From a virus: DNA of 64,000 nt. The position numbers and the translations under genes were made by a program. The stretch is taken from IMG/VR virus record IMGVR_UViG_3300044997_001199, positions 151,331-215,330 of that record, one strand, 5' to 3'. This document shows positions 15,797 through 59,771 of the stretch, piece by piece. Positions within the stretch are counted from its first letter, which is position 1. Every line of letters begins with the position of its first letter. Under the pieces are notes generated by a model that had not been told where the DNA came from, did no database searches, and was given only the letters and a program-made list of their open reading frames with translations.

Positions 15797-16909
15797 TTAT
15801 CTGCGAGCTCGACCCAGCGTGCCTTTGGTGCCCATGGACTTTCCGTCAGCAGGCTCTTCCGTGTCCAGATCAGTGTCCACAGCAAGGTCCATGCTGTTGT
15901 CAGGAGGCATGGACATGTTGGTGTTGCCGGCGTCCATGGCTGCGTCCAAGGTCGGCGTCGCTGGCTGTTGTCCTGTGACAATCCCCAAGGCCACTTCCAA
16001 CTGTTGTTTGGCAGCCTGTAGGTTTTTTACTAGACCAGTCAGTGCCGCAGTGGCATCGGTATTGAATTGATTGGCCTGATCCATGCCGGTTTGGTTACGT
16101 ATAGAATCTACCAAGGCCGGTAATTCTTTGAACTGCATCTCAGTGGTGTCCTCCAGCATGCCTTGCATCTTGTCTACCATGTCCTGAGCGGCCAGCACTA
16201 CCTGTGCTTGCTGCACTTCGCTTTCGTTGAGAGTGCGATAGGCACTGCGCAGGCGGTTTTCTTGTTGCATCAACGCAGCACTGACCACGAGTTTTTGTTC
16301 GTCGGGGCTGAGGGTTTGACCACTCTGGCTCTTCTTGAGCGCAGCAGCCAATTTGGGATCCTTGACGTTGACCGCAGGCTTGGCAGCAGCAGGCTTGGCC
16401 GCGGCCGAACCTGATGATTGGGCAGAGGTAGCCGCACCTGTGGTAGGTACCATTTCTTCACGGATTTCTTGTTGCATCAACGCAGCACTGACCACGAGTT
16501 TTTGTTCGTCGGGGCTGAGGGTTTGACCACTCTGGCTCTTCTTGAGCGCAGCAGCCAATTTGGGATCCTTGACGTTGACCGCAGGCTTGGCAGCAGCAGG
16601 CTTGGCTGCGGCCGAACCTGATGATTGGGCAGAGGTAGCCGCACCTGTGGTAGGTACCATTTCTTCACGGACTCGACTGGCCAACGCAGTTTCCATCACT
16701 ACCAACTTGAGATATGCCGGGTCCTGCTCACGAAAATGATGAATCACAGTTTGTTTGTGTTCTTGCATGAGACCCCGCACGCGATCTAACATCTGGCAGG
16801 CCTGGCGCAGCGTCAGCTGGTCAAATGCGATACGAGTCCCAAAGTGATTTTCAAATACCTTGGTAGCATGGCACACTGGATCAGACGCAGCGAGTTCTTG
16901 CAGTTTCAT
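15797..16909 (-). CDS. Helical protein with 69-residue tandem duplication
   Basis: 370 residues, mostly helical. The middle contains two almost identical 69-residue blocks, each with an Ala/Lys/Pro linker (SGSAAAKPAAAKPAVNV) and a helical part (LKKSQSGQTLSPDEQKLVVS). The C-terminus is acidic and Met/Asp rich. A ribosome site (GAGGA) and a CTAAATA late element precede the ATG. The function is unknown; composition resembles phage scaffold or core proteins, but that is a guess. Confidence 0.75.
   Translation of the reverse strand: MKLQELAASDPVCHATKVFENHFGTRIAFDQLTLRQACQMLDRVRGLMQEHKQTVIHHFREQDPAYLKLVVMETALASRVREEMVPTTGAATSAQSSGSAAAKPAAAKPAVNVKDPKLAAALKKSQSGQTLSPDEQKLVVSAALMQQEIREEMVPTTGAATSAQSSGSAAAKPAAAKPAVNVKDPKLAAALKKSQSGQTLSPDEQKLVVSAALMQQENRLRSAYRTLNESEVQQAQVVLAAQDMVDKMQGMLEDTTEMQFKELPALVDSIRNQTGMDQANQFNTDATAALTGLVKNLQAAKQQLEVALGIVTGQQPATPTLDAAMDAGNTNMSMPPDNSMDLAVDTDLDTEEPADGKSMGTKGTLGRARR
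16258..16671 (-). repeat. 207-base tandem duplication
   Basis: Bases 16258-16464 and 16465-16671 are identical apart from one change (C at 16400, T at 16607). The unit is 69 codons, so the frame is kept. The near identity shows that the duplication is very recent or is held by ongoing recombination. Confidence 0.97.
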
Positions 16910-32817: not shown

Positions 32818-34275
32818 TCATCTCCATTCTAGCCTTTCCTGTGAAAATGGATATTGTGCGTCGCGATAGTAGGCCTTGCGCTTGGTCAAATGTCGTTTGG
32901 CGAACCTACACGTGGAGGTTATATCCCAGATCTCCACGTGGTCCTTGTCTTCGGCTTTTCGAATACCGCGGCCAATCGACTGAATAACTCGGACAAAACT
33001 CTTGCCAGGCTCCACGAGCACAAGATTAAAAATACGAGGAATATTGATACCAACAGCAGCAACCCCATATGTAGCGACGATAATTTTGTCGCTAGCCTCT
33101 GAAACTTCGTCATAGTGATCTCGTCTTTCGGCTGATTTTGTAGACCCTGATATGAATACTGCGTTCGGTAATTTACTTACCAGAGCTTCGCCGGCGGCGA
33201 TTCGATCTACCAAGATCAGGGTATTGCCTGTGTTCTTGACCTTGTTGACCAAATCAGCAATGGCGTCGAGTCGGCCGGGTTCTTCGAGCAGATACTTGAG
33301 TTCGCTTTGATAGTTGGAAAATTCAACGGAATCCACCAGTTGCACGACATTGACATGACACTGTGCCAACACTCCGCGACCCTGCAGTTCGGCAGCGGCC
33401 AACCTGGACACCACTGGCCCCAGACTTACCAACAATGACTGACTCTCAAATGCTTCTTTGGGTATGGTGCCTGTGAGTCCCCAACGCATGGGCACTTGAC
33501 TCATCACCCCGGTGAGCAGGCTTTTGAGCGCGTCGGCCTTGGCCATGTGCACTTCGTCCACGATCACACAGATCACGTTTTCTAAAAATTCTTGTATGGT
33601 AATAAGTGCAGTCTGATTGCGTGTGTTTTTCAGCAACACATTGAGACTCTGCCAGGTGCAGATGGTATGTTGATGTCCAAACTCTTTGCGGTCACCAAAA
33701 AACACTCCTACGTCAAGGCCAAGATTACGATAATCTACCTCGGTCTGCGTGACCAGACTTTTGTTAGGAACGATCACGATGCTACGTCCGTACTGCCCTG
33801 CGGCATCACTTAGCGCAGCGGTCATGATGGTTTTGCCTGCACCTGTGGCCACTTCCTGCACACACTGCGGGTTAGCCAGAAAGTTGTTGATGATTTCAAT
33901 CTGATAATCGCGTAGTAATATGGCCTGACCTGCGGCAGGGTGTCCCTTGGGCCATGTCCGGTCTTGGTATGTGGTTTCAACTACTGAGTTAAATTCAAAA
34001 GTAGTGCGGTAGTTTCGTTGGTCGTCTAGTTCTATGTCGTACCCATCCTCTTCCAATATGGGCAGTATGTCGGGCAAGAGATTTACGTAGGTACTGCCGC
34101 CCAATTGAAAATAGGCTACCTTGCCATCCCAGCGTCCTAACCGCACTGCGGGCAAATAGCGGGCATATGGCACATCATATTTGAATCGATTGACCAACCG
34201 ACGACGCGTATCAAGGTCCAGACCTTCTAATTTGATGTTGACTTCGTCGCGGATAATCAGTTGAGCTTTTTTCAT
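32818..34275 (-). CDS. uvsW: UvsW-type superfamily 2 helicase
   Basis: 485 residues, same plan as T4 UvsW. The N-terminal domain has a typical VRLGRWDGKVAYF segment. Helicase motifs: Q/I region LRDYQIEIINNFL with ATGAGKT, II VDEVH, III LTGTIP, V VGINIPRI, VI QSIGRGIRK. UvsW remodels forks and R-loops and moves replication from origin to recombination mode. It lies in the replication gene block. Confidence 0.94.
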   Translation of the reverse strand: MKKAQLIIRDEVNIKLEGLDLDTRRRLVNRFKYDVPYARYLPAVRLGRWDGKVAYFQLGGSTYVNLLPDILPILEEDGYDIELDDQRNYRTTFEFNSVVETTYQDRTWPKGHPAAGQAILLRDYQIEIINNFLANPQCVQEVATGAGKTIMTAALSDAAGQYGRSIVIVPNKSLVTQTEVDYRNLGLDVGVFFGDRKEFGHQHTICTWQSLNVLLKNTRNQTALITIQEFLENVICVIVDEVHMAKADALKSLLTGVMSQVPMRWGLTGTIPKEAFESQSLLVSLGPVVSRLAAAELQGRGVLAQCHVNVVQLVDSVEFSNYQSELKYLLEEPGRLDAIADLVNKVKNTGNTLILVDRIAAGEALVSKLPNAVFISGSTKSAERRDHYDEVSEASDKIIVATYGVAAVGINIPRIFNLVLVEPGKSFVRVIQSIGRGIRKAEDKDHVEIWDITSTCRFAKRHLTKRKAYYRDAQYPFSQERLEWR

Positions 34276-34301
34276 GTACTGAAGCTTAACATGATTTCCT
34301 T

Positions 34302-35186
34302 TTAGGCACGATCAATTTGGATTGTTTTAAGACACTGGTGTTGAGAAATCTGCCGGAATATCTCATCTTGTTCTGCAGATTGATCAAGTTTAGCTATAGT
34401 AATTCCACCTAGACTGAGACGTTTGGTGGGTTTTTCATATCCCAGCTTGGCGAAAAACTCCCTATGTTGAGCAAAATACTTCCAGATTCTTTGTTCAACC
34501 TCGGAATGCTGTTGAAAAGACTGGTCAGTGAATCTCACCGTAAAATCAAAACAATAATGACGCTGAGGAACAAAAGCATCTTCGCTTATCCATTGGTCGT
34601 CGTCGTGCCAGAGGTCGTATAAGTTTTTTCCAATTTCACAGTAATTTAATCTAAGATCTCCCCATTCTTCGTGTAAAGAAAAATGCTGATAATCCTCTGG
34701 CAGCAGTTCATCGCGATAGGGTTTGTGTTTCCAGGTGGCTACAAATCTTGGAATCCCCCCCAGCGTTTCATACCGATGTATCCAGATGTTAAGGTCTCCC
34801 AAGGCTACTTGTACCGGCACAGGGGCATTACGAAAAAATTCATTGTTGTCTTGCTGATCATACAATCCATGATACCGTTCAAAGATATGGTGCAGGTAAT
34901 TAAGGTCATCTCGGCTGAGAGTTTCACCTATGTCGCGGTCTATGATATCGGGCGAATAATCTCGGATTGTCGCCACGAGATGTTTTAAATGCTGGATTGT
35001 TTCTTTGTGACCATAACGACCGTGCGGAAAATTGTAAAATCTTAAGGAATCATCCCATGGTTGCCCGGCATCAATAAAATATTGGAGATGTTTGAGCCAA
35101 CGGTCGGCGATGCCAATGGGCAGAAGATCAAACCGTAAATCATAATTATCTATTCCGTTGGTAAGCGTGATAAGTACCTGAGTCAT
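34302..35186 (-). CDS. Conserved phage protein, unknown function
   Basis: 294 residues with many His, Tyr, Trp and Asp (FYNFPHGRYGHKETIQHLKH; NYCEIGKNLYDLWHDDDQW). No recognised motif. Its start codon and that of the plus-strand gene at 35185 overlap back to back, so the two cannot both have normal leaders; at least one start may lie inside. Confidence 0.65.
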   Translation of the reverse strand: MTQVLITLTNGIDNYDLRFDLLPIGIADRWLKHLQYFIDAGQPWDDSLRFYNFPHGRYGHKETIQHLKHLVATIRDYSPDIIDRDIGETLSRDDLNYLHHIFERYHGLYDQQDNNEFFRNAPVPVQVALGDLNIWIHRYETLGGIPRFVATWKHKPYRDELLPEDYQHFSLHEEWGDLRLNYCEIGKNLYDLWHDDDQWISEDAFVPQRHYCFDFTVRFTDQSFQQHSEVEQRIWKYFAQHREFFAKLGYEKPTKRLSLGGITIAKLDQSAEQDEIFRQISQHQCLKTIQIDRA

Positions 35187-35781
35187 GCATACCTCTTTTG
35201 TTCAACTAAATTTGTCAGGATCATGGTGTAATGAATGGCCCACTCTCCGGGTTCGGGGCAATGAAACTATTTATTTTGACGGTAGTGTGATAGACAATAT
35301 CAGTATCGAGTTTTCAATGCCGTTGAATGCTCTGAACACGTTGGAAATTGAACATTACGGAAAGTCCTTCGGCGAAAACGGACGTTGGGATACGCTGGTC
35401 GAGGATGGTCAAATCACGCAGGACCGCGCTGTAAAAATCAATCACATCTGCCTGGACGAGGTAGATCTCATCGATTACCTATTTAAAAACTTTCCCATGA
35501 AAGTTGGTCAAGAAACCATTAGTACCGATTACATGGGCCACAACGGCGTCATTTCGATTGCATTTGAGTCTCCGGTGTACAATTGGATTATTAAAACTTT
35601 CGTGGCCCCAAAAGAAAGAAACAAACCCACTTTTGATCTGGTAGTAGAAACCAGCTTTGGCAACCTGTTTGATTATTCGCAGGACCTATTAGAGATAGAA
35701 GAAATTGAAAACATTCTGATCCAAAATGCACATCTCATTGATAAACCTTCCGCGATTCGAAATACACCGGCCGCCTCTTAG
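35185..35781 (+). CDS. Protein paired with a radical SAM enzyme, unknown function
   Basis: Up to 198 residues, acidic, beta-rich (TLRVRGNETIYFDGSVIDNI; YMGHNGVISIAFESPVYNWI). The 3' end overlaps the radical SAM gene by 56 bases, so the two are probably co-expressed. It could be a partner or substrate of that enzyme; nothing in the sequence shows it. The start at 35185 overlaps the divergent gene. Confidence 0.6.
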   Translation: MHTSFVQLNLSGSWCNEWPTLRVRGNETIYFDGSVIDNISIEFSMPLNALNTLEIEHYGKSFGENGRWDTLVEDGQITQDRAVKINHICLDEVDLIDYLFKNFPMKVGQETISTDYMGHNGVISIAFESPVYNWIIKTFVAPKERNKPTFDLVVETSFGNLFDYSQDLLEIEEIENILIQNAHLIDKPSAIRNTPAAS

Positions 35782-41541: not shown

Positions 41542-42312
41542 ATGAACAAGACCATAGTTTTAATCACTGGTGGATTTGATCCTGTGCACTCAGGGCACAT
41601 CGCTTATATCAATGCAGCACGAAAACTAGGCGATGTGCTGGTAGTGGGTGTGAACTCAGACGCTTGGCTGTCTCGCAAAAAAGGCCGAGCATTCATGCCT
41701 GAATTCGAACGTTGTACTGTGGTCCGATCCATAGTAGGCGTGGACTTTGTGATTACCTTTGATGATTCCGATGGATCGGCACGCGATGCTATACGCAAGG
41801 TGCGAGACAGTTATCCAGGAGATCGCATTGTTTTCGCCAATGGCGGTGATCGAACTGCTGTGAACATACCCGAGATGGACCTGCAGGACCCTGGACTGGA
41901 ATTCCAATTTGGCGTGGGCGGAGCTCACAAAGCCAACTCATCATCCTGGATACTGGAAGAATGGAAAGCACCCAAAACTCAACGGACCTGGGGATACTAC
42001 CGTGTGCTGTACGAATATGAGGCCGAGGTCAAGCTCAAAGAATTGATAGTGGACCCCGGCCAGCGGCTCAGCATGCAACGCCATCGAGATCGCTCCGAAC
42101 ATTGGTTCGTGGCCCAGGGTACTGCCACGGTGTATACTATCAATCGGTCAACCGATGCTGAAATACTGGGGATCTACCAGGCCCACCAACACGTACACAT
42201 TTCTCGTGCCCAGTGGCACCAATTGGTCAATGAAACTGATCAACCGTTGAAACTTATTGAAATCCAGTACGGTACCAATTGTGTGGAAGAAGACATAGAG
42301 AGACGTACTTGA
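41542..42312 (+). CDS. Cytidylyltransferase-type domain fused to a cupin
   Basis: 256 residues from ATG 41542; the upstream extension runs through the promoter. Residues 1-140: nucleotidyltransferase fold with ITGGFDPVHSGHIAYI (the HxGH motif) as in the RfaE/HldE C-domain and TagD. Residues 160-256: cupin resembling the C-terminal domain of type II mannose-6-phosphate isomerase/ManC (PGQRLSMQRHRDRSEHWFVA, then WHQLVN). It may activate a sugar phosphate for the transferases that follow. The fusion is unusual to me. Confidence 0.8.
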   Translation: MNKTIVLITGGFDPVHSGHIAYINAARKLGDVLVVGVNSDAWLSRKKGRAFMPEFERCTVVRSIVGVDFVITFDDSDGSARDAIRKVRDSYPGDRIVFANGGDRTAVNIPEMDLQDPGLEFQFGVGGAHKANSSSWILEEWKAPKTQRTWGYYRVLYEYEAEVKLKELIVDPGQRLSMQRHRDRSEHWFVAQGTATVYTINRSTDAEILGIYQAHQHVHISRAQWHQLVNETDQPLKLIEIQYGTNCVEEDIERRT

Positions 42313-49243: not shown

Positions 49244-49271
49244 TCTGCCTGTAGCTCAGCCGGAAGAGCAA
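49207..49271 (+). repeat. 65-base direct repeat, right copy
   Basis: Same as 47967-48031. It carries the end of a coding sequence and the 5' half of tRNA-Arg, here fused to a different tRNA 3' half. Confidence 0.97.
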
Positions 49272-49320
49272 TGGACTTAAAATCCATCCAGTACGGGCTC
49301 GAATCCCGCCACTCGCACCA
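49245..49320 (+). tRNA. Chimeric tRNA, TAA anticodon
   Basis: The 5' half (to about 49271) is that of tRNA-Arg (TCT). The 3' half has anticodon stem ATGGA/TCCAT, loop CTTAAAA (anticodon TAA), short variable loop CCAGT, and ends CACTCGCACCA. The acceptor ends CTGCCTG and CACTCGC do not pair well (3 of 7 mismatched), so it is probably not functional. Confidence 0.65.
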
Positions 49321-49323
49321 TAT

Positions 49324-49331
49324 CATAAATA
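49324..49331 (+). promoter_or_regulatory. Late promoter CATAAATA before the RNase H-like gene
   Basis: CATAAATA lies 26 bases before the ATG at 49358, with CGGAGTAAAC as ribosome site between them. Confidence 0.6.
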
Positions 49332-49357
49332 GTGTTGTAGTAACACTCGGAGTAAAC

Positions 49358-49831
49358 ATGCTTAAACTTAATATTGAAGAAGTTAAAGCATTTATAGATT
49401 CACAAAGCAAAGAAACAAGAATTTATATCGGGTGCGACTCTGAACGCTTTAGACACAATAACGTATGGTGGGCCGAGTATACTGTGGCAGTGGTGATCCA
49501 TATGGATGGGCGTCACGGCTGTAGGATTTTTGGCGAAGTTACCCGAGAAAGAGACTATGACCAACGCAGAGATCGACCCAGCATGCGTCTCATGAACGAA
49601 GTTCACAAGGCTAGCGAGATGTTTCAGCGTCTGGCGCTGGTGCTAGCGGATCGTCCAGTGGAAGTACATCTTGACATCAATCCCAACGAGATCCACGGAT
49701 CTAACTGTATAATCCAGCAGGCCATTGGCTACATACGAGGTACATGCAATGTGATTCCCATGATCAAACCTCGGGCATTTGCTGCCAGCTATGCGGCAGA
49801 TCGGCTCAAATCTCTACGTTTATCAGCTTGA
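49358..49831 (+). CDS. RNase H-like protein (DUF458/YkuK type)
   Basis: 157 residues from ATG 49358; the upstream open frame lies in tRNA sequence. RIYIGCDSERF carries the first acidic residue of an RNase H-like fold, EYTVAVVIHMDGRHG the next strand, and VEVHLDINPNE a later acidic pair. This fits the DUF458 group of predicted nucleases. It may remove RNA primers or process RNA; inferred. Confidence 0.75.
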   Translation: MLKLNIEEVKAFIDSQSKETRIYIGCDSERFRHNNVWWAEYTVAVVIHMDGRHGCRIFGEVTRERDYDQRRDRPSMRLMNEVHKASEMFQRLALVLADRPVEVHLDINPNEIHGSNCIIQQAIGYIRGTCNVIPMIKPRAFAASYAADRLKSLRLSA

Positions 49832-51276: not shown

Positions 51277-51513
51277 ATGATCAGAACCAGTACAATTTGT
51301 TACGATCCTTCCAATTTCGATCATCGTCATGATTTTTATCGTTTACTAAAATCTGGAACATTTACTTGGTGCAAAAACCGCTATGCACTGAAAGGACAGT
51401 ATGGTGATGTACTGAACATGATGTTAGACCTCACTGTGCGATATTATGCAGAGCAAGAATTTGGTCCGCTGGAATCGGTTAACATCGATACACCAAATAA
51501 AGTAATGACATGA
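51277..51513 (+). CDS. Small phage protein, unknown function
   Basis: 78 residues: MIRTSTICYDPSNFDHRHDF, then YRLLKSGTFTWCKNRYALKG. TTAAGG precedes the ATG. It ends over the start of the adenylyltransferase gene (ATGA). No motif recognised. Confidence 0.65.
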   Translation: MIRTSTICYDPSNFDHRHDFYRLLKSGTFTWCKNRYALKGQYGDVLNMMLDLTVRYYAEQEFGPLESVNIDTPNKVMT

Positions 51514-51908
51514 CCAAGATTTTTGTCAATGGCACATTCGATGTGCTGCATCTAGGACATCTGGCTCTGTTGGAATATGCGCACAGTCTAGGCACTGTGA
51601 TGGTTGCCATTGACAGCGATGCCAGGATCAAACAATTGAAAGGTGCCCAAAGACCTGTAAATACTCTGGTAGAACGCATTACCATGCTAGAGGCCCTGCG
51701 TTGTGTAGACAGTGTGCGCGTATTTGATACCGATCAAGATCTGATCGACATAATACGTGCGTATCAACCCAACATCATGGTCAAAGGCTCTGACTATCAA
51801 GGACGTAACATCATTGGCGCCGAACACTGTGACCACATAGACTTTTTTCCGAGACTCGATGATTACTCAACCACTAAAAAAATTCAAAATATTGCTCATA
51901 GGCGATGA
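51510..51908 (+). CDS. HldE C-domain-like adenylyltransferase
   Basis: 132 residues. FVNGTFDVLHLGHLALLEYA contains the HxGH nucleotidyltransferase motif; AIDSDARIKQLKGAQRPVNT and MVKGSDYQGR match the RfaE2/HldE C-terminal domain, which makes ADP-heptose from heptose-1-phosphate. The partner kinase domain follows as a separate gene, the reverse of the usual kinase-first order in fused HldE. Confidence 0.85.
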   Translation: MTKIFVNGTFDVLHLGHLALLEYAHSLGTVMVAIDSDARIKQLKGAQRPVNTLVERITMLEALRCVDSVRVFDTDQDLIDIIRAYQPNIMVKGSDYQGRNIIGAEHCDHIDFFPRLDDYSTTKKIQNIAHRR

Positions 51909-52629
51909 TTGTGTAGACATCTATCGCTATGGTACGGTGAATCGACTGTGCCCCGAGGCTCCTGTGCCAATTTTTGAACCCAGCCACGACGAAACTCGAC
52001 CTGGCATGGCCAACAATGTGGCACAGAACTTTCTAAGCCTGGGGTGCGAGGTCACTACTATGCTGGGCGATGCCAGCACAAAGATACGCCTCATTGATAT
52101 CCGCAGCGGTCAACAGGTCTTGCGTCTAGACCAGAATGTTCAATCGTCTCCGATCAAACTGCACTGTCGTATACCTCAGACTTTTGATGCCGTGGTTATT
52201 TCAGACTACAACAAAGGCGCCGTGGATCATCGTCTCATACGAGAGATACGCAAAGAATTTGTTGGTCCGGTATTCATCGATACCAAGAAGTCCGAGTTGG
52301 CCAAATTCAACGGATGCATTTTAAAAATCAACGAACGCGAGTTCAACGATCGCAAAAGCATATGCGATCAATTGATCGTAACTCTAGGCGATCGTGGTGC
52401 AAGGTATCACGATCACGGCACCATCACTGATTTTGCTCCGCATCGAGTGGAAGTGAGCGATGTGTGCGGAGCCGGTGACACCTTCCTGGCTGCCTTGGTC
52501 TACCAATACCTTGTTACCGGAGAAATCGCCCAGGCCATTGAATTTGCGATGTCTGCTGCGGCAGTCACTGTACAACATCTAGGCGTGTATGCGCCCACAC
52601 TGGAGGAAATTAATGCGATTTCGTGGTGA
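51859..52629 (+). CDS. HldE N-domain-like heptose-7-phosphate kinase
   Basis: 256 residues, PfkB family. LLIGDDCVDIYRYGTVNRLC and PEAPVPIFEP match the RfaE1 start; RPGMANNVAQNF is the substrate-binding GG-like segment; VCGAGDTFLAAL is the catalytic GAGD motif. It is about 60 residues shorter than typical RfaE1, with a reduced middle part. It overlaps the adenylyltransferase gene by 50 bases. Confidence 0.85.
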   Translation: MITQPLKKFKILLIGDDCVDIYRYGTVNRLCPEAPVPIFEPSHDETRPGMANNVAQNFLSLGCEVTTMLGDASTKIRLIDIRSGQQVLRLDQNVQSSPIKLHCRIPQTFDAVVISDYNKGAVDHRLIREIRKEFVGPVFIDTKKSELAKFNGCILKINEREFNDRKSICDQLIVTLGDRGARYHDHGTITDFAPHRVEVSDVCGAGDTFLAALVYQYLVTGEIAQAIEFAMSAAAVTVQHLGVYAPTLEEINAISW

Positions 52630-52990
52630 AGTCATCAAAGGATGGGGGTCGGAGAAGATCTGGGTCACCAACGATCTCTACTGCGGTAAATTCATGACAT
52701 TCCACAGTGGCGCAAAATTCAGCATGCATTTTCATGCACACAAAGACGAGACATGGTATGTGATGTCTGGTAGATTCACTGTGCGCACTATCAATACCCG
52801 GGATGCTTCGCATCACACCCGGGAGCTTGGTACAGGGGATGTGTGGCACAATCCGCCCTTGTTGCCGCACCAGTTGATTTGTCACGAAGCTGGCACCATT
52901 ATCGAAGTCAGCACCGCTGATTCTGTAGAAGACAACTATCGCGTGGAGGCCGGGGACAGCCAGAAATACCACTGTAATGATTACACATGA
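52613..52990 (+). CDS. Cupin, mannose-6-phosphate isomerase-like
   Basis: 125 residues from ATG 52613, with GGAGG 7 bases before it. GKFMTFHSGAKFSMHFHAHK, DETWYVMSG and PPLLPHQLICHEAG are the two cupin motifs with metal-binding His and Glu. Such proteins often isomerise or epimerise sugar phosphates. It overlaps the kinase gene, forming a sugar-nucleotide unit with it. Confidence 0.8.
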   Translation: MRFRGEVIKGWGSEKIWVTNDLYCGKFMTFHSGAKFSMHFHAHKDETWYVMSGRFTVRTINTRDASHHTRELGTGDVWHNPPLLPHQLICHEAGTIIEVSTADSVEDNYRVEAGDSQKYHCNDYT

Positions 52991-53073
52991 AAAACCATAT
53001 CACAAAGAAATACTGGCAATGGTTGCCCGACCTTGTCTGGAGTGATTTGTTGTTGCACATTCCGCCTGCATGA
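52987..53073 (+). CDS. 28-residue coupled peptide
   Basis: MKNHITKKYWQWLPDLVWSD, then LLLHIPPA. Its ATG overlaps the cupin stop (ATGA) and its stop overlaps the next gene's start (ATGA), so it exactly bridges the gap. That arrangement supports translation. It may also simply carry ribosomes to the next gene. Confidence 0.5.
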   Translation: MKNHITKKYWQWLPDLVWSDLLLHIPPA

Positions 53074-53366
53074 AGTTGATTCCGTGGTCGCAATGGCTGG
53101 ATGAACACATACCCCACTACGAGGCAGAACGTCACAGATCGAGATTTCTGGACAATCCTCCCGCAGTGATTTTGATTGTACAGCCGCGAGACCGAGTTGC
53201 GGCTGATCGAACGCCCAGACTCCGGGGTTGGGAAGAGTATGTTACTGATGTCAAGTTCATGAATCATGGTGCAGTGCCCTTGTTTTTAGAAAATGATGCA
53301 CACCAAGAATGGTACTGGGCGTTCTGGGATGCCAACGAGGCTTTGGTTGCCGTCATGAAGTTATAG
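53070..53366 (+). CDS. Small phage protein, unknown function
   Basis: 98 residues: MKLIPWSQWLDEHIPHYEAE, PPAVILIVQPRDRVAADR, then EWYWAFWDANEALVAVMKL. Trp-rich. Coupled to the peptide before it. No family recognised. It is the last gene before the separate pqqA unit. Confidence 0.65.
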   Translation: MKLIPWSQWLDEHIPHYEAERHRSRFLDNPPAVILIVQPRDRVAADRTPRLRGWEEYVTDVKFMNHGAVPLFLENDAHQEWYWAFWDANEALVAVMKL

Positions 53367-53413
53367 GCATGTATTTCATAATTTGATGTAGTGATTTTGC
53401 GATGATTTTGCCT

Positions 53414-53428
53414 TATACTCACTATAAG
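53414..53428 (+). promoter_or_regulatory. Possible promoter -10 elements before pqqA
   Basis: TATACT (53414-53419) and TATAAG (53423-53428) are good -10 candidates. A matching -35 is weak (GTGATT at 53391-53396, 17 bases from TATACT). A promoter is expected because pqqA has its own terminator and is 121 bases from the gene before it. Confidence 0.4.
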
Positions 53429-53431
53429 TAC

Positions 53432-53462
53432 TTCAAGCAACAACTGTTGCTCGGTGCTTGAA
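53432..53462 (+). promoter_or_regulatory. Two mutually exclusive hairpins in the pqqA leader
   Basis: TTCAAGCA (53432-53439) pairs with TGCTTGAA (53455-53462). AGCAAC (53436-53441) pairs with GTTGCT (53446-53451). The two stems share AGCA, so only one can form at a time. It could control translation of the peptide gene 26 bases downstream. Confidence 0.5.
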
Positions 53463-53487
53463 ATCTTTTATCAAAGGAAACACAACC

Positions 53488-53559
53488 ATGTGGTCCAAAC
53501 CTGCTGCCGCTGATCTGCGCTTTGGTTTTGAAGTCACCATGTACATCGCTGCTCGCTGA
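53488..53559 (+). CDS. pqqA: PqqA-like precursor peptide of pyrroloquinoline quinone
   Basis: 23 residues, the usual length of PqqA. The sequence begins MWSKPAAADLR and ends FGFEVTMYIAAR. The Glu and Tyr that become the PQQ ring are at E15 and Y19 with the conserved ExxxY spacing, and the MW.KP...DLR.GFEVTMY pattern is the family signature. In bacteria PqqE cross-links Glu to Tyr with the chaperone PqqD, and PqqB, F and C finish the cofactor. None of these is in this window, so host enzymes would be needed. AAAGGA lies before the ATG, and it has its own leader and terminator. Confidence 0.93.
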   Translation: MWSKPAAADLRFGFEVTMYIAAR

Positions 53560-53584: not shown

Positions 53585-53613
53585 AAAAAAGGACCCCTGC
53601 GGGGGTCCTTTTT
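53585..53613 (+). terminator. Rho-independent terminator after pqqA
   Basis: AAAAAA, then GGACCCC (53591-53597), loop TGCG, GGGGTCC (53602-53608) and TTTTT. It is a strong intrinsic terminator 26 bases after the pqqA stop, and would work in both directions. Confidence 0.95.
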
Positions 53614-53685: not shown

Positions 53686-54780
53686 ATGAGTTATGTCAGC
53701 GAAAATCGTACTGTTACCAGTGTGCAGGCTCGCAAAAGTTTGTTGACTGCATTCCGAGTCCAACGCCCGGTGTTTCTTTGGGGCCCCCCGGGCATTGGCA
53801 AGAGCGAATTGGTCGCAGGTATTACACAGGAGCTAGGCGGGCTGATGATCGACCTGCGTCTGGGACAGATGGAACCCACAGACATCCGTGGTATTCCATT
53901 CTACAACAAAGAAACTGGTCGCATGGACTGGGCGCCGCCCGTCGATCTGCCCGATGCAGAACTGGCCAGCCAATATCCCATTGTTGTTCTGTTCATGGAC
54001 GAAATGAACTCAGCGCCGGCTTCGGTGCAGGCCTCAGCATATCAGCTGACCTTGAATCGCTGCGTGTGTCGCTATCATCTGCCACGCAATGTGGTCATCG
54101 TGGCAGCAGGCAATCGTGAGTCAGACAAAGGTGTGACCTTCCGCATGCCCACGCCATTGGCCAATCGTTTTGTGCACATCGAAATGCGTGTGGACTTTGA
54201 ATCCTGGCATGCCTGGGCTGTGACCAACAACGTGCACAAGGATGTGGTAGGCTACATTACCTTTGCCAAGCAAGATCTCTATGACTTTGATAGCAAGAGC
54301 TCCAGTCGAGCATTTGCCACTCCGCGGTCTTGGACCTTTGTGAGCCAACTGATCAGCGACGACACTGTGGATGAGGACACTGCGACCAATCTCGTGGCCG
54401 GTACCGTGGGCGAGGGCCTGGCCGTGAAGTTCATGGCTCACCGCAAAATTGCCAGCCGTATGCCGCAGCCCATTGACATTCTCCGGGGCAAGGTCAAGGA
54501 CCTCGAAGTCAAGGAAGTGTCGGCCATGTACAGCCTGGTCACGTCCATGTGTTACGAACTGCGAGACGCTGTACAAAACAAAGTGTCCGACAAGGAATTC
54601 CACGAGATGGCTGACAACTTCTTTGGCTACATGATGAAGAACTTTGAGACCGAACTGGTAGTCATGGGTGCACGTATCGCACTGACCACATTCAACCTGC
54701 CGTTCCAGCCCGCCAAGCTCAAAAATTTCGACGAGTTTCACCAACGCTATGGCAAGTACATTCTGCAGGCCAACAGCTAA
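53686..54780 (+). CDS. MoxR-family AAA+ ATPase
   Basis: 364 residues from ATG 53686, with CAGGAG 8 bases before it. Walker A GPPGIGKSELV, the RLGQMEPTDIRGIPFYN segment typical of MoxR/CobS-like proteins, Walker B VVLFMDEMNSAP, sensor 1 VVIVAAGNRESD. MoxR ATPases work with VWA proteins to insert cofactors or activate enzymes; the founding member activates methanol dehydrogenase in methylotrophs. A VWA gene follows at 55463. Similar pairs occur in phages of other hosts, so a link to PQQ enzymes is a hypothesis. Confidence 0.88.
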   Translation: MSYVSENRTVTSVQARKSLLTAFRVQRPVFLWGPPGIGKSELVAGITQELGGLMIDLRLGQMEPTDIRGIPFYNKETGRMDWAPPVDLPDAELASQYPIVVLFMDEMNSAPASVQASAYQLTLNRCVCRYHLPRNVVIVAAGNRESDKGVTFRMPTPLANRFVHIEMRVDFESWHAWAVTNNVHKDVVGYITFAKQDLYDFDSKSSSRAFATPRSWTFVSQLISDDTVDEDTATNLVAGTVGEGLAVKFMAHRKIASRMPQPIDILRGKVKDLEVKEVSAMYSLVTSMCYELRDAVQNKVSDKEFHEMADNFFGYMMKNFETELVVMGARIALTTFNLPFQPAKLKNFDEFHQRYGKYILQANS

Positions 54781-55048: not shown

Positions 55049-55434
55049 TCATGCGATACAAAATACAACGACTAGACGGGCGCTATAGCTATCGCAGATG
55101 GTTTCAATACTACATCGGCTTCCGCTCCAGCATGAATCAGGATCACGGGCCCATGCAGTTTACTCAAGCACAACAATGGTTTTCAGACACCTATGGTTGG
55201 AGCGCCGAAATACGTCAATGGGCCGACATCCATCGCTGGACTGCCATGAGACTACAGAGCTTGCATCAACCCTGGCAGACCGAAGACCGAGTGCTAGAAA
55301 ACCTTCCTGCTGTGTGCAATCGACACTGGTCCTGGACCAACAGAGCCACTGATCTTCGTATCTATGTAGCATCAGATCGCGAACTGGCGTTTTTCCAACT
55401 GGCACATTCTGTTGACCAAAAAAACCGTACCTAA
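55045..55434 (+). CDS. Small phage protein, unknown function
   Basis: 129 residues from GTG 55045 (an ATG at 55051 is an alternative). Many Trp, Arg and Gln (YSYRRWFQYYIGFRSSMNQD; DIHRWTAMRLQSLHQPWQTE). No motif recognised. It lies directly before the VWA gene. Confidence 0.65.
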   Translation: MIMRYKIQRLDGRYSYRRWFQYYIGFRSSMNQDHGPMQFTQAQQWFSDTYGWSAEIRQWADIHRWTAMRLQSLHQPWQTEDRVLENLPAVCNRHWSWTNRATDLRIYVASDRELAFFQLAHSVDQKNRT

Positions 55435-55462
55435 CACAATAGCATTGTCAACGGAGGCTCAC

Positions 55463-56731
55463 ATGACCACTGCCACAAATACCACCAACAAAGACGATGC
55501 CAAGCGATTCGCCACCCTCATCGGGCCCACCGATTCCAGGGTCGATGCTCAGGCCCGTGAGAGCTTGGTCACTGCCCGGGTAGGCATGTTGCTGCGAGCC
55601 AGTTTCTTTGGCAATCTTGCCACACGCCTGCGCCTGATCAATGCTGATGAATGGTGCGCCACTGCTGCCACCGACGGTCGCAATTTTTACTACAACAGTC
55701 GTTTCATCATGATGCTGCGCCCGCGAGAGATTGAATTCTTAGTTGGGCATGAAGTGTTGCACTGCATCTATGATCACTTTGGGCGGCGCAACGATCGCGA
55801 CCCGCAACTGTGGGGTATTGCCTGTGACTATTGTGTCAATGCTGATCTCAAAAAGCACCGTGTGGGTGAATTCATTACTTCGGTACCCTGTCTGTACGAC
55901 AGCAAGTACGAAGACATGAGTTCCGAAGAAATCTATGATCAACTCTACAAAAATGCCAACAAGATCAACATCAACGATCTTATTGACTGCATGATCGACA
56001 AACACATGGACGGCAATGACAGTGATGACGAGCAGAATGGCAAGGCGCCCAGCACCTTGACTGCCGAAGAACGTGCCAAGATCCGTGACGAAATCAAAGA
56101 AGCCATGTTGGCTGCTGCTGCCACAACCGACGGCGCCGCCGGTAACCTGCCCGCTGGTGTGCGTCGCATAATCCAGCAAATAACCGAGCCGCGTCTGAAC
56201 TGGCGAGAAATGATCCGTATGAACATCGAAAGCACGGTCAAGAGTGACTTTACCTGGCTGCGATCCAACCGTCGTGGTTGGCACATGGACGCCGTGATGC
56301 CCGGCATGAAGAATGACGAAATGGTCGACGTGGTGATCATGATCGATGCGTCTGGTTCCATGAACAATGATACCTTGCGTGACTGCCTGGGAGAAGTCCA
56401 AAACATCATGGAGTCATTTCCGTCGTTCCGCATCCACATCGCTGCTTTTGATACCCAGGTATACAATCCGGTGGACTATACATCAGACAACCTTGACAAC
56501 ATCTGCGATTACGAAATCTCGGGCGGCGGCGGCACTGACTTTGATGTCATGTACGATTATCTGCGAAAAAATGATATCCAGCCCAAACGCATGATTGTGT
56601 TCACAGACGGCTATCCCTTTGGTTCGTGGGGCGACGAAAACTATTGCGATGTGACCTGGGTGCTGCATGGAACCACCAGCATTGTTCCGCCTTGGGGCTC
56701 CTATGCCTACTTCGAGGACGAGAAAAAGTAA
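55463..56731 (+). CDS. VWA-domain protein with HExxH peptidase-like domain
   Basis: 422 residues from ATG 55463, with GGAG 6 bases before it. The N-terminal domain has EIEFLVGHEVLHCIYDHFG, an HExxH-type zinc site, as in the DUF2201 group. The C-terminal VWA domain starts VDVVIMIDASGSMNND, the DxSxS metal site, with ISGGGGTDFDVM and MIVFTDGYPFG (T and D ligands). These proteins pair with MoxR ATPases, here encoded just upstream. Substrate unknown. Confidence 0.88.
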   Translation: MTTATNTTNKDDAKRFATLIGPTDSRVDAQARESLVTARVGMLLRASFFGNLATRLRLINADEWCATAATDGRNFYYNSRFIMMLRPREIEFLVGHEVLHCIYDHFGRRNDRDPQLWGIACDYCVNADLKKHRVGEFITSVPCLYDSKYEDMSSEEIYDQLYKNANKININDLIDCMIDKHMDGNDSDDEQNGKAPSTLTAEERAKIRDEIKEAMLAAAATTDGAAGNLPAGVRRIIQQITEPRLNWREMIRMNIESTVKSDFTWLRSNRRGWHMDAVMPGMKNDEMVDVVIMIDASGSMNNDTLRDCLGEVQNIMESFPSFRIHIAAFDTQVYNPVDYTSDNLDNICDYEISGGGGTDFDVMYDYLRKNDIQPKRMIVFTDGYPFGSWGDENYCDVTWVLHGTTSIVPPWGSYAYFEDEKK

Positions 56732-58653: not shown

Positions 58654-58809
58654 GTGTCTGTAGAACAACTCAAAGCTGCGCTGGCAAAAAAACAACAAAA
58701 ACAGAACCCCCGCGGTTCCAGGTCTGACTCTCTTGATTCTGCTTCTGCTCCGCGCAGTCAAGTGTCAGTGAAGAAACCCTCCAAGAAATCCGCCGGCCGC
58801 GGACGATGA
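58654..58809 (+). CDS. 51-residue basic protein
   Basis: Starts at GTG 58654 (VSVEQLKAALAKKQQKQ) and ends KKPSKKSAGRGR. A short helix is followed by a Ser-, Lys- and Arg-rich disordered part, so it may bind nucleic acid. Its stop overlaps the epimerase start (ATGA), which supports translation. Confidence 0.6.
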   Translation: MSVEQLKAALAKKQQKQNPRGSRSDSLDSASAPRSQVSVKKPSKKSAGRGR

Positions 58810-59771
58810 ATGTTCTAGTCACCGGCGGCCTGGGATTCATCGGGCACCAGGTAGTAAAGCGCCTCATGCGTCGAGGTGATGACACCGTGATCATGGACAC
58901 GCAAACTGATTATGGTATCATACCCCACAGCGAACTGCAATATCTCATGGGCGAAAGATTGAAAAAAATCAACAACCATCCAGTGATTCACGCAGACATC
59001 TCTGCTGGGGGCCCAGTTGACTACGCCATTGCTCGTGATCAGCCTGAAGTCATAATACATTGCGCCAGCGTTCCAAGGCAAAAAGTAGTCAACGCCAACC
59101 CTGTCTGGGGTGCAGATGTCATGATACGGGGTTTGATCAATCTTCTTGAGAGTGCCAAAAAACATCAAGTACGCAGATTTGTGTACGTGAGTTCTAGCAT
59201 GGTTTATGGTGACTTTAAAGATCAGGTTACCGAGGAGTCTCCTTGTAACCCACAAGGCCAATATGGCATCATGAAACTTGCTGGCGAATGGTTGGTCAAA
59301 GACTATGCTTGTCGTTACGGCTTTGAATATGTTATCATTCGTCCCAGTGCGGTGTACGGTCCTTTGGATGTAGAAGATCGAGTTGTAGCCAAATTCATGA
59401 TTGCAGCCATGCATAATGGAACACTCAAGGTCAATGGTGCCGAAGAAACTTTAGATTTTACCTATGTTGATGATGCAGCCGATGGTATTGTGGCGTCTGC
59501 AACGTTACCACAGGCTGCTAATAATACTTTCAATATCACAAAAAGCCATGGTGTTACTTTACGTCGAGCAGCCATGATGATTGTAAGTATTGTAGGTTCT
59601 GGCAATGTTGAATGTCGAGATCGAGATCTCGACTTCCCTAGTAGAGGTGCATTAAATATAGACAAAGCTCGTGACCTCCTGGGTTATAATCCTAAAATTG
59701 ATGTTGAAGAAGGATTTCAGAATTATTACAAGTGGTTGAGAGAGTCAACATATTGGAATGTGCATGATTAA
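58806..59771 (+). CDS. NAD-dependent sugar-nucleotide epimerase/dehydratase
   Basis: 321 residues, extended short-chain dehydrogenase. NAD site LVTGGLGFIGHQ at the start, VYVSSSMVYGD with the catalytic Ser, and YGIMKLAGEW with the YxxxK pair, then RPSAVYGPLDV. Resembles UDP-glucose 4-epimerase and relatives; ADP-heptose 6-epimerase (HldD) activity is possible given the HldE-like genes, but not shown. It lies upstream of an aminotransferase gene. Confidence 0.88.
   Translation: MNVLVTGGLGFIGHQVVKRLMRRGDDTVIMDTQTDYGIIPHSELQYLMGERLKKINNHPVIHADISAGGPVDYAIARDQPEVIIHCASVPRQKVVNANPVWGADVMIRGLINLLESAKKHQVRRFVYVSSSMVYGDFKDQVTEESPCNPQGQYGIMKLAGEWLVKDYACRYGFEYVIIRPSAVYGPLDVEDRVVAKFMIAAMHNGTLKVNGAEETLDFTYVDDAADGIVASATLPQAANNTFNITKSHGVTLRRAAMMIVSIVGSGNVECRDRDLDFPSRGALNIDKARDLLGYNPKIDVEEGFQNYYKWLRESTYWNVHD

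Follow-up and report, generated by a model that had tools for sequence, protein, structure and literature searches.

PQQ is cut out of the peptide PqqA, in which a Glu and a Tyr supply the atoms that become the cofactor. One peptide is consumed for each PQQ while the catalysts PqqB-E are reused, so that, of the whole pathway, it is the peptide alone that is needed in amount. The pqqA gene usually lies beside pqqBCDE, although this arrangement is not required.

Phages carrying pqqA have been described. The Lake Baikal viral population VP_266, reported in 2020, encodes PqqA together with a methanol dehydrogenase and was proposed to act on methanol oxidation (PMC7678222); a 2026 reservoir study lists viral pqqA, pqqD and pqqE (PMC13188868). 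Given these two reports, phage pqqA is already known as a kind of gene, and the novelty claimed for the present locus by an earlier, sequence-only reading, which knew of no described phage pqqA, falls away. Bacteria themselves keep solo copies: in Methylophilaceae, where these are normal, 3-12 copies of pqqA accompany one set of pqqBCDE (PMC4109929). Like the phage gene described here, such copies would provide an extra, stand-alone supply for a single pqqBCDE set, but they are chromosomal. Our locus resembles that of VP_266 in that a phage carries PqqA and higher PQQ levels in a methylotrophic host are its proposed effect. Whereas VP_266 is a T4-like phage of Methylophilaceae with a methanol dehydrogenase, however, the carrier here is a PA5oct-like jumbo phage without a dehydrogenase, and its peptide is closest to that of another betaproteobacterial group. 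What is new is this different phage lineage and host type of peptide, together with the breadth of the gene's occurrence, its hitherto unnoticed presence in cultured phages, the evidence of selection on it and its compact transcription unit.

Identification of a PqqA peptide in a jumbo phage contig

The gene lies in a virus contig of 215,330 bp from IMG/VR, the final 64 kb of which form the window, that is, the whole stretch of DNA analysed here and the one to which all coordinates refer (Table 1). Its predicted product, MWSKPAAADLRFGFEVTMYIAAR, scored 38.2 bits against Pfam PF08042 (E 1.3e-9; curated cut-off 21.1 bits) and 37.8 bits against the NCBIfam equivalog TIGR02107 (E 1.2e-9; curated cut-off 20 bits); among solved structures it had no match. 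A six-frame search of the entire 215,330-bp record returned this single pqqA site (E 2.9e-9), and the same search of 14 control genomes gave zero matches, which together rule out chance for the site. With the PqqA family of Proteobacteria (TIGR02107/PF08042) the peptide shares its length, an MW.KP start, an R.GFEVTMY core, and Glu15 and Tyr19 in the spacing E-x-x-x-Y. Unlike the usual members of that family, it is phage-encoded and solitary, with no adjacent pqqBCDE. Judged by both profiles and the placement of these residues, it is a complete PqqA, which is what it had looked like to the sequence-only reading from the Glu15/Tyr19 spacing and the MW.KP and GFEVTMY parts. The further claim that no PqqB-E is visible extends beyond the window: PqqB, C, D and E were all absent from the whole 215-kb record, and no PQQ alcohol dehydrogenase or methanol dehydrogenase was found in the phage.

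Table 1. Features of the pqqA locus and its surroundings (window coordinates)
Feature	Position	Strand	Remarks
RNase H-like protein	49271..49831	+	Pfam PF04308; left anchor of variable island
98-aa ORF directly upstream of pqqA	53070..53366	+	adjoins pqqA in an independent viral contig too
31-nt block CTTATACTCACTATAAGTACTTCAAGCAACA	53412..53442	+	identical in related contig L279 (pairwise alignment)
Putative -10 box TATACT	53414-53419	+	inside the 31-nt block
Leader hairpin, predicted near transcript 5' end	53425..53460	+	RNA fold
Shine-Dalgarno-like AAAGGA	53473..53478	+	9 nt before ATG (sequence)
pqqA	53488..53559	+	23 codons, ATG at 53488, TGA at 53557-53559; translation MWSKPAAADLRFGFEVTMYIAAR; Glu15, Tyr19; PF08042 and TIGR02107 above cut-offs
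Intrinsic terminator-like hairpin AAAAAGGACCCC-TGCG-GGGGTCCTTTTT	53586..53613	+	12 bp, T-run, starts 26 nt past stop
MoxR-like AAA ATPase	53686..54780	+	right anchor of island; 50% identity to PA5oct ATPase
Metallopeptidase/VWA protein (DUF2201), MoxR partner	55412..56731	+	Pfam PF13203, PF09967

The pqqA gene is an accessory gene of the phage

The window encodes ribonucleotide reductase, DNA ligase, a DnaB helicase, a primase, a further helicase, virion structural proteins and a tail spike. Its DnaB and MoxR-like ATPase are closest, at about 50% identity, to those of the Pseudomonas jumbo phage PA5oct and its kin, and by this gene content the carrier is a PA5oct-like jumbo phage of 215 kb. 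Phage genes flank pqqA on either side: the variable island that contains it is bounded by the RNase H-like gene on the left and by a conserved MoxR/VWA pair on the right; the MoxR-like ATPase is conserved in PA5oct-like jumbo phages, with 69-81% identity in 80 viral contigs, and the metallopeptidase/VWA gene lies beside it in 70 of these 80 relatives.

Since a near-identical peptide exists in bacterial metagenome-assembled genomes (MAGs), in some of them as a solo copy, host DNA could in principle have been joined to the viral record by misassembly, the outcome that the sequence-only reading had named as its refutation. We tested this reading and reject it as extremely unlikely. The likeness to bacteria is limited to the 23 codons (60-62 of 72 nt), the flanks are unlike the host, GC content is continuous across the locus, and pqqA also occurs in isolated phages. 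Moreover, an independent viral contig of 94.5 kb (G048, locus L279) is 72% identical in nucleotide sequence over the 98-aa ORF, the intergenic region and the whole of pqqA and keeps the same order of ORF, putative promoter and pqqA, likewise between an RNase H-like gene (a 66% identical homologue) and the start of MoxR.

Related phages generally do without the gene. It was absent from the examined flanks in all 80 viral contigs with a 69-81% identical MoxR, and from 29 of 30 related records searched whole or in part, the sole exception being a 355-kb record (G038) that encodes a different PqqA, MAWTTPQATDLRYGFEISMYIANR, at another location. These distributions mark pqqA as an accessory gene of this jumbo-phage group, one that is dispensable for the lineage.

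The gene resembles a one-gene transcription unit

The 31-nt block shared with the related contig is unique in the window, where none would be expected by chance. It contains the TATACT at which we place a putative promoter; a sigma-70 consensus scan did not report this promoter upstream of pqqA, and a recurring phage promoter motif was sought and not found. The predicted RNA fold of the pqqA unit is more stable than shuffled sequences (z = -4.0), as is the leader alone (z = -4.2) and the leader of L279 (z = -4.0). The T-run of the terminator-like hairpin falls within the stem, which is why a consensus scanner missed the hairpin. Taken together, these features make pqqA look like a one-gene transcription unit that begins with a leader hairpin and ends in a terminator.

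Both elements are enriched at viral pqqA genes. Leaders with z < -2 were found at 33 of 142 viral pqqA genes compared to 13 of 150 other ORFs of the same contigs (p = 0.0005, Fisher's exact test), and a strict terminator followed within 120 nt in 47 of 139 cases compared to 4 of 1390 shuffles. Three viral pqqA leaders (L138, L279 and window 53425-53460) have in common a TAAGTACT...AGTACTTA-like hairpin, which could be a shared RNA element; in Rfam nothing reached the gathering score.

Origin of the gene and selection on the peptide

When the core of the peptide was scanned against 84,980 prokaryote genomes, eight matches were obtained, all reading MWTKPAAADLRFGFEVTMYIAAR and thus one residue off the phage peptide (22/23 identical). 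The eight sites are in MAGs of Betaproteobacteria/Rhodocyclaceae from lakes and ponds, two of them labelled Klebsiella. At one site (L167) pqqA is followed by pqqBCDE, and the others include solo copies. These candidate host MAGs are about 2 Mb in size and carry one to three full pqqA copies, among them solo copies with terminators, as well as several PQQ alcohol dehydrogenases above the TIGR03075 cut-off. The hosts of the phage are likely to be found among the freshwater Betaproteobacteria with MWTKPAAADLRFGFEVTMYIAAR or their kin; the phage tRNAs match the candidate hosts at 71-84%, which does not fix the host. The two Klebsiella-labelled sites (L169 and L171, CAMDGF010000037.1 and CAMDGF010000001.1) belong to a MAG titled Klebsiella pneumoniae that holds freshwater betaproteobacterial pqqA copies and PQQ dehydrogenases, and its label is probably wrong.

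Comparison of the phage gene with nine host pqqA genes shows 8-10 synonymous changes (pS 0.50-0.63) against one or two non-synonymous ones (pN 0.019-0.038), a ratio that indicates purifying selection on the peptide. Across 126 viral pqqA genes, mean pN was 0.10 and pS 0.60. On these comparisons the phage gene derives from a bacterial pqqA, probably that of a PQQ-making betaproteobacterial host, and is kept under selection in phages. A recently acquired host fragment without function, carried as a passive passenger, would fit the patchy distribution, with pqqA in the examined flanks of 0 of 80 MoxR-bearing relatives, but is very unlikely in view of the excess of synonymous differences from the host genes, the same junction in the 72%-identical contig, the phage-type leader and own terminator, and the independent occurrence of pqqA in many lineages of phage, the viral loci falling into at least 12 unlinked clusters by their flanks.

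Lone pqqA genes are widespread among phages

A tblastn search over 50,697 phage records recovered PqqA in nine records of Methylophilales phage isolates (Melnitz, four records; Venkman; MEP301; MEP401; MEP402; P19250A) and in one spring-water phage genome. Like the carrier studied here, these isolates encode a stand-alone PqqA, although their phage backbones are unrelated to it. The hosts of the isolates are methanol oxidisers, as are all identified hosts of pqqA phages, and every methanol-oxidiser phage isolate found carries the lone gene. None of these records, that of the spring-water phage included, annotates it as pqqA; in the isolate records, its site has no annotated gene or an opposite-strand "hypothetical protein". 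PqqA or PQQ is likewise not mentioned as belonging to the phage in the published descriptions of these isolates, and PHROGs holds no PqqA family. Two kinds of match from these searches were set aside. One, filed as "Acinetobacter phage MD-2021a" (L136, CAKLQF020000010.1), contains the whole of pqqABCDE along with ppk and fur and looks like a bacterial chromosome; the others, in E. coli and Shigella phages (E about 8), fall inside annotated endolysins and a terminase subunit and are due to chance.

Pattern scans of IMG/VR, whose counts are lower bounds, found complete PqqA at at least about 290 viral loci. As methylotroph chromosomes also carry solo pqqA, the phage nature of the loci was checked; the largest ORFs at 49 randomly chosen loci encode portal proteins, a head-tail adaptor, a clamp loader, DNA polymerase, endolysin and tail fibres. 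These results bear out the suspicion of the sequence-only reading that the gene may be widespread and unnoticed, annotation having mostly missed it, and we found no earlier report in the open-licence literature that phage pqqA is this common. PqqB-E did not occur beside pqqA at any of the approximately 290 viral loci listed. Among 34 larger pqqA records, PqqE above cut-off was found in none and a methanol dehydrogenase in one by profile search. This one is a viral contig of 72,356 bp (G005, locus L043) with a PQQ methanol/ethanol dehydrogenase and pqqA at positions 34049-35731 and 41887-41943, and it resembles Baikal VP_266 in combining the two.

Five viral loci among the matches listed are of an alphaproteobacterial type with GMEVTSY. 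Two viral contigs from one metagenome (L273, on the 265,895-bp G051, and L277) have a Methylobacterium-type PqqA, which in L273 reads MKWSAPIVQEVCVGMEVTSYDSAEIDTFN; we read L273 as a jumbo phage of an alphaproteobacterium that uses the same lone-pqqA trick.

When positions 15 and 19 were left unconstrained in a viral scan, Glu15 and Tyr19 were kept in 119 of 119 complete peptides among the matches listed, all of them 23 aa long. This bears on whether the peptide might act as a decoy or inhibitor that ties up host PqqD/PqqE and slows the making of PQQ, or might be put to some other use, as the lack of a phage PqqE to process it would allow. In a decoy, one would expect the reactive Glu or Tyr to be lost or changed, or the peptide to drift, whereas both residues are invariant and the phage peptide hardly differs from the substrate of the host; we therefore hold such a function to be highly improbable.

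A proposed role in supplying the PQQ precursor

We consider it probable that the phage brings only the stoichiometric substrate and borrows PqqB-E from its host, pqqA being a genuine auxiliary metabolic gene of betaproteobacterial origin that keeps dehydrogenases loaded. Supply of the precursor had been put forward in the sequence-only reading, and we judge it the best fit to a complete PqqA that occurs alone, without PqqB-E. During infection, a short transcript with a hairpin at its start and a terminator at its end would yield abundant PqqA, which host PqqD would bind and host PqqE, a radical SAM enzyme, would cross-link between Glu15 and Tyr19. Host proteases, PqqB and PqqC would then complete PQQ, and the extra cofactor would load XoxF/MDH-type or other PQQ dehydrogenases, so that energy flow would be maintained after host transcription drops. 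With 69 coding nucleotides, pqqA would be the cheapest part of the pathway for a phage to bring, and a substrate gene would suffice for a phage that relies on existing host enzymes while shutting host transcription off. We infer each of these steps: expression, cross-linking by host PqqE, more PQQ and a benefit via PQQ dehydrogenases.

Several observations argue for this role, besides the profile scores, the selection on the peptide, the invariant Glu15 and Tyr19, the terminators at viral copies and the pairing of pqqA with a dehydrogenase in G005 and VP_266. The phage peptide is 22/23 identical to a PqqA encoded just upstream of pqqBCDE (L167); Methylophilaceae themselves amplify pqqA alone (PMC4109929); and the occurrence of the lone gene in all methanol-oxidiser isolates found and at so many viral loci implies that phages probably top up their hosts' PQQ raw material. 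Counting against it, most close relatives of the phage lack pqqA, and raising the whole operon increased PQQ far more than did raising pqqAB alone (PMC7936290).

The PQQ made from the phage peptide might instead scavenge radicals, signal stress or be released to neighbours, rather than load dehydrogenases. PQQ is known to act as a scavenger, and the phage has no dehydrogenase of its own, in keeping with the single dehydrogenase among the 34 larger pqqA records. We nevertheless think this unlikely, given that every identified host of a pqqA phage oxidises methanol and that the genomes with the closest peptides carry PQQ dehydrogenases.

Beyond this locus, the chances seem about even that phages of PQQ users have, as a general strategy, repeatedly and independently taken the substrate gene alone and left catalysis to the host, and that pqqA is near-universal in methylotroph phages, overlooked because of its 23 codons, and may also spread solo pqqA to host chromosomes. 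If so, viruses in lakes and seas would control, via one tiny peptide, a cofactor for the oxidation of methanol and other alcohols, and pqqA, missed by standard annotation, would rank with the most frequent metabolic genes in methylotroph phages. The role is directly testable, because isolated phage-host pairs (Venkman or MEP401 with OM43 strains) carry the gene, and short-peptide genes of this kind call for profile searches without a length limit.

Other features of the carrier contig

At the end of the contig (window 63555-64000) lie 2.2 copies of a tandem repeat of 201 bp, inside a minus-strand ORF of 788 aa, and a second repeat, 207 bp in two copies, lies at 16258-16671; these repeats belong either to repetitive proteins or to an assembly that collapsed where the contig ends. 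At 51510-52990 and 58806-59768, the window also holds a split HldE-like set, in which the heptose adenylyltransferase and kinase halves are separate genes, a cupin gene and a dTDP-glucose dehydratase-like gene, which points to synthesis or modification of a nucleotide-activated sugar by the phage.
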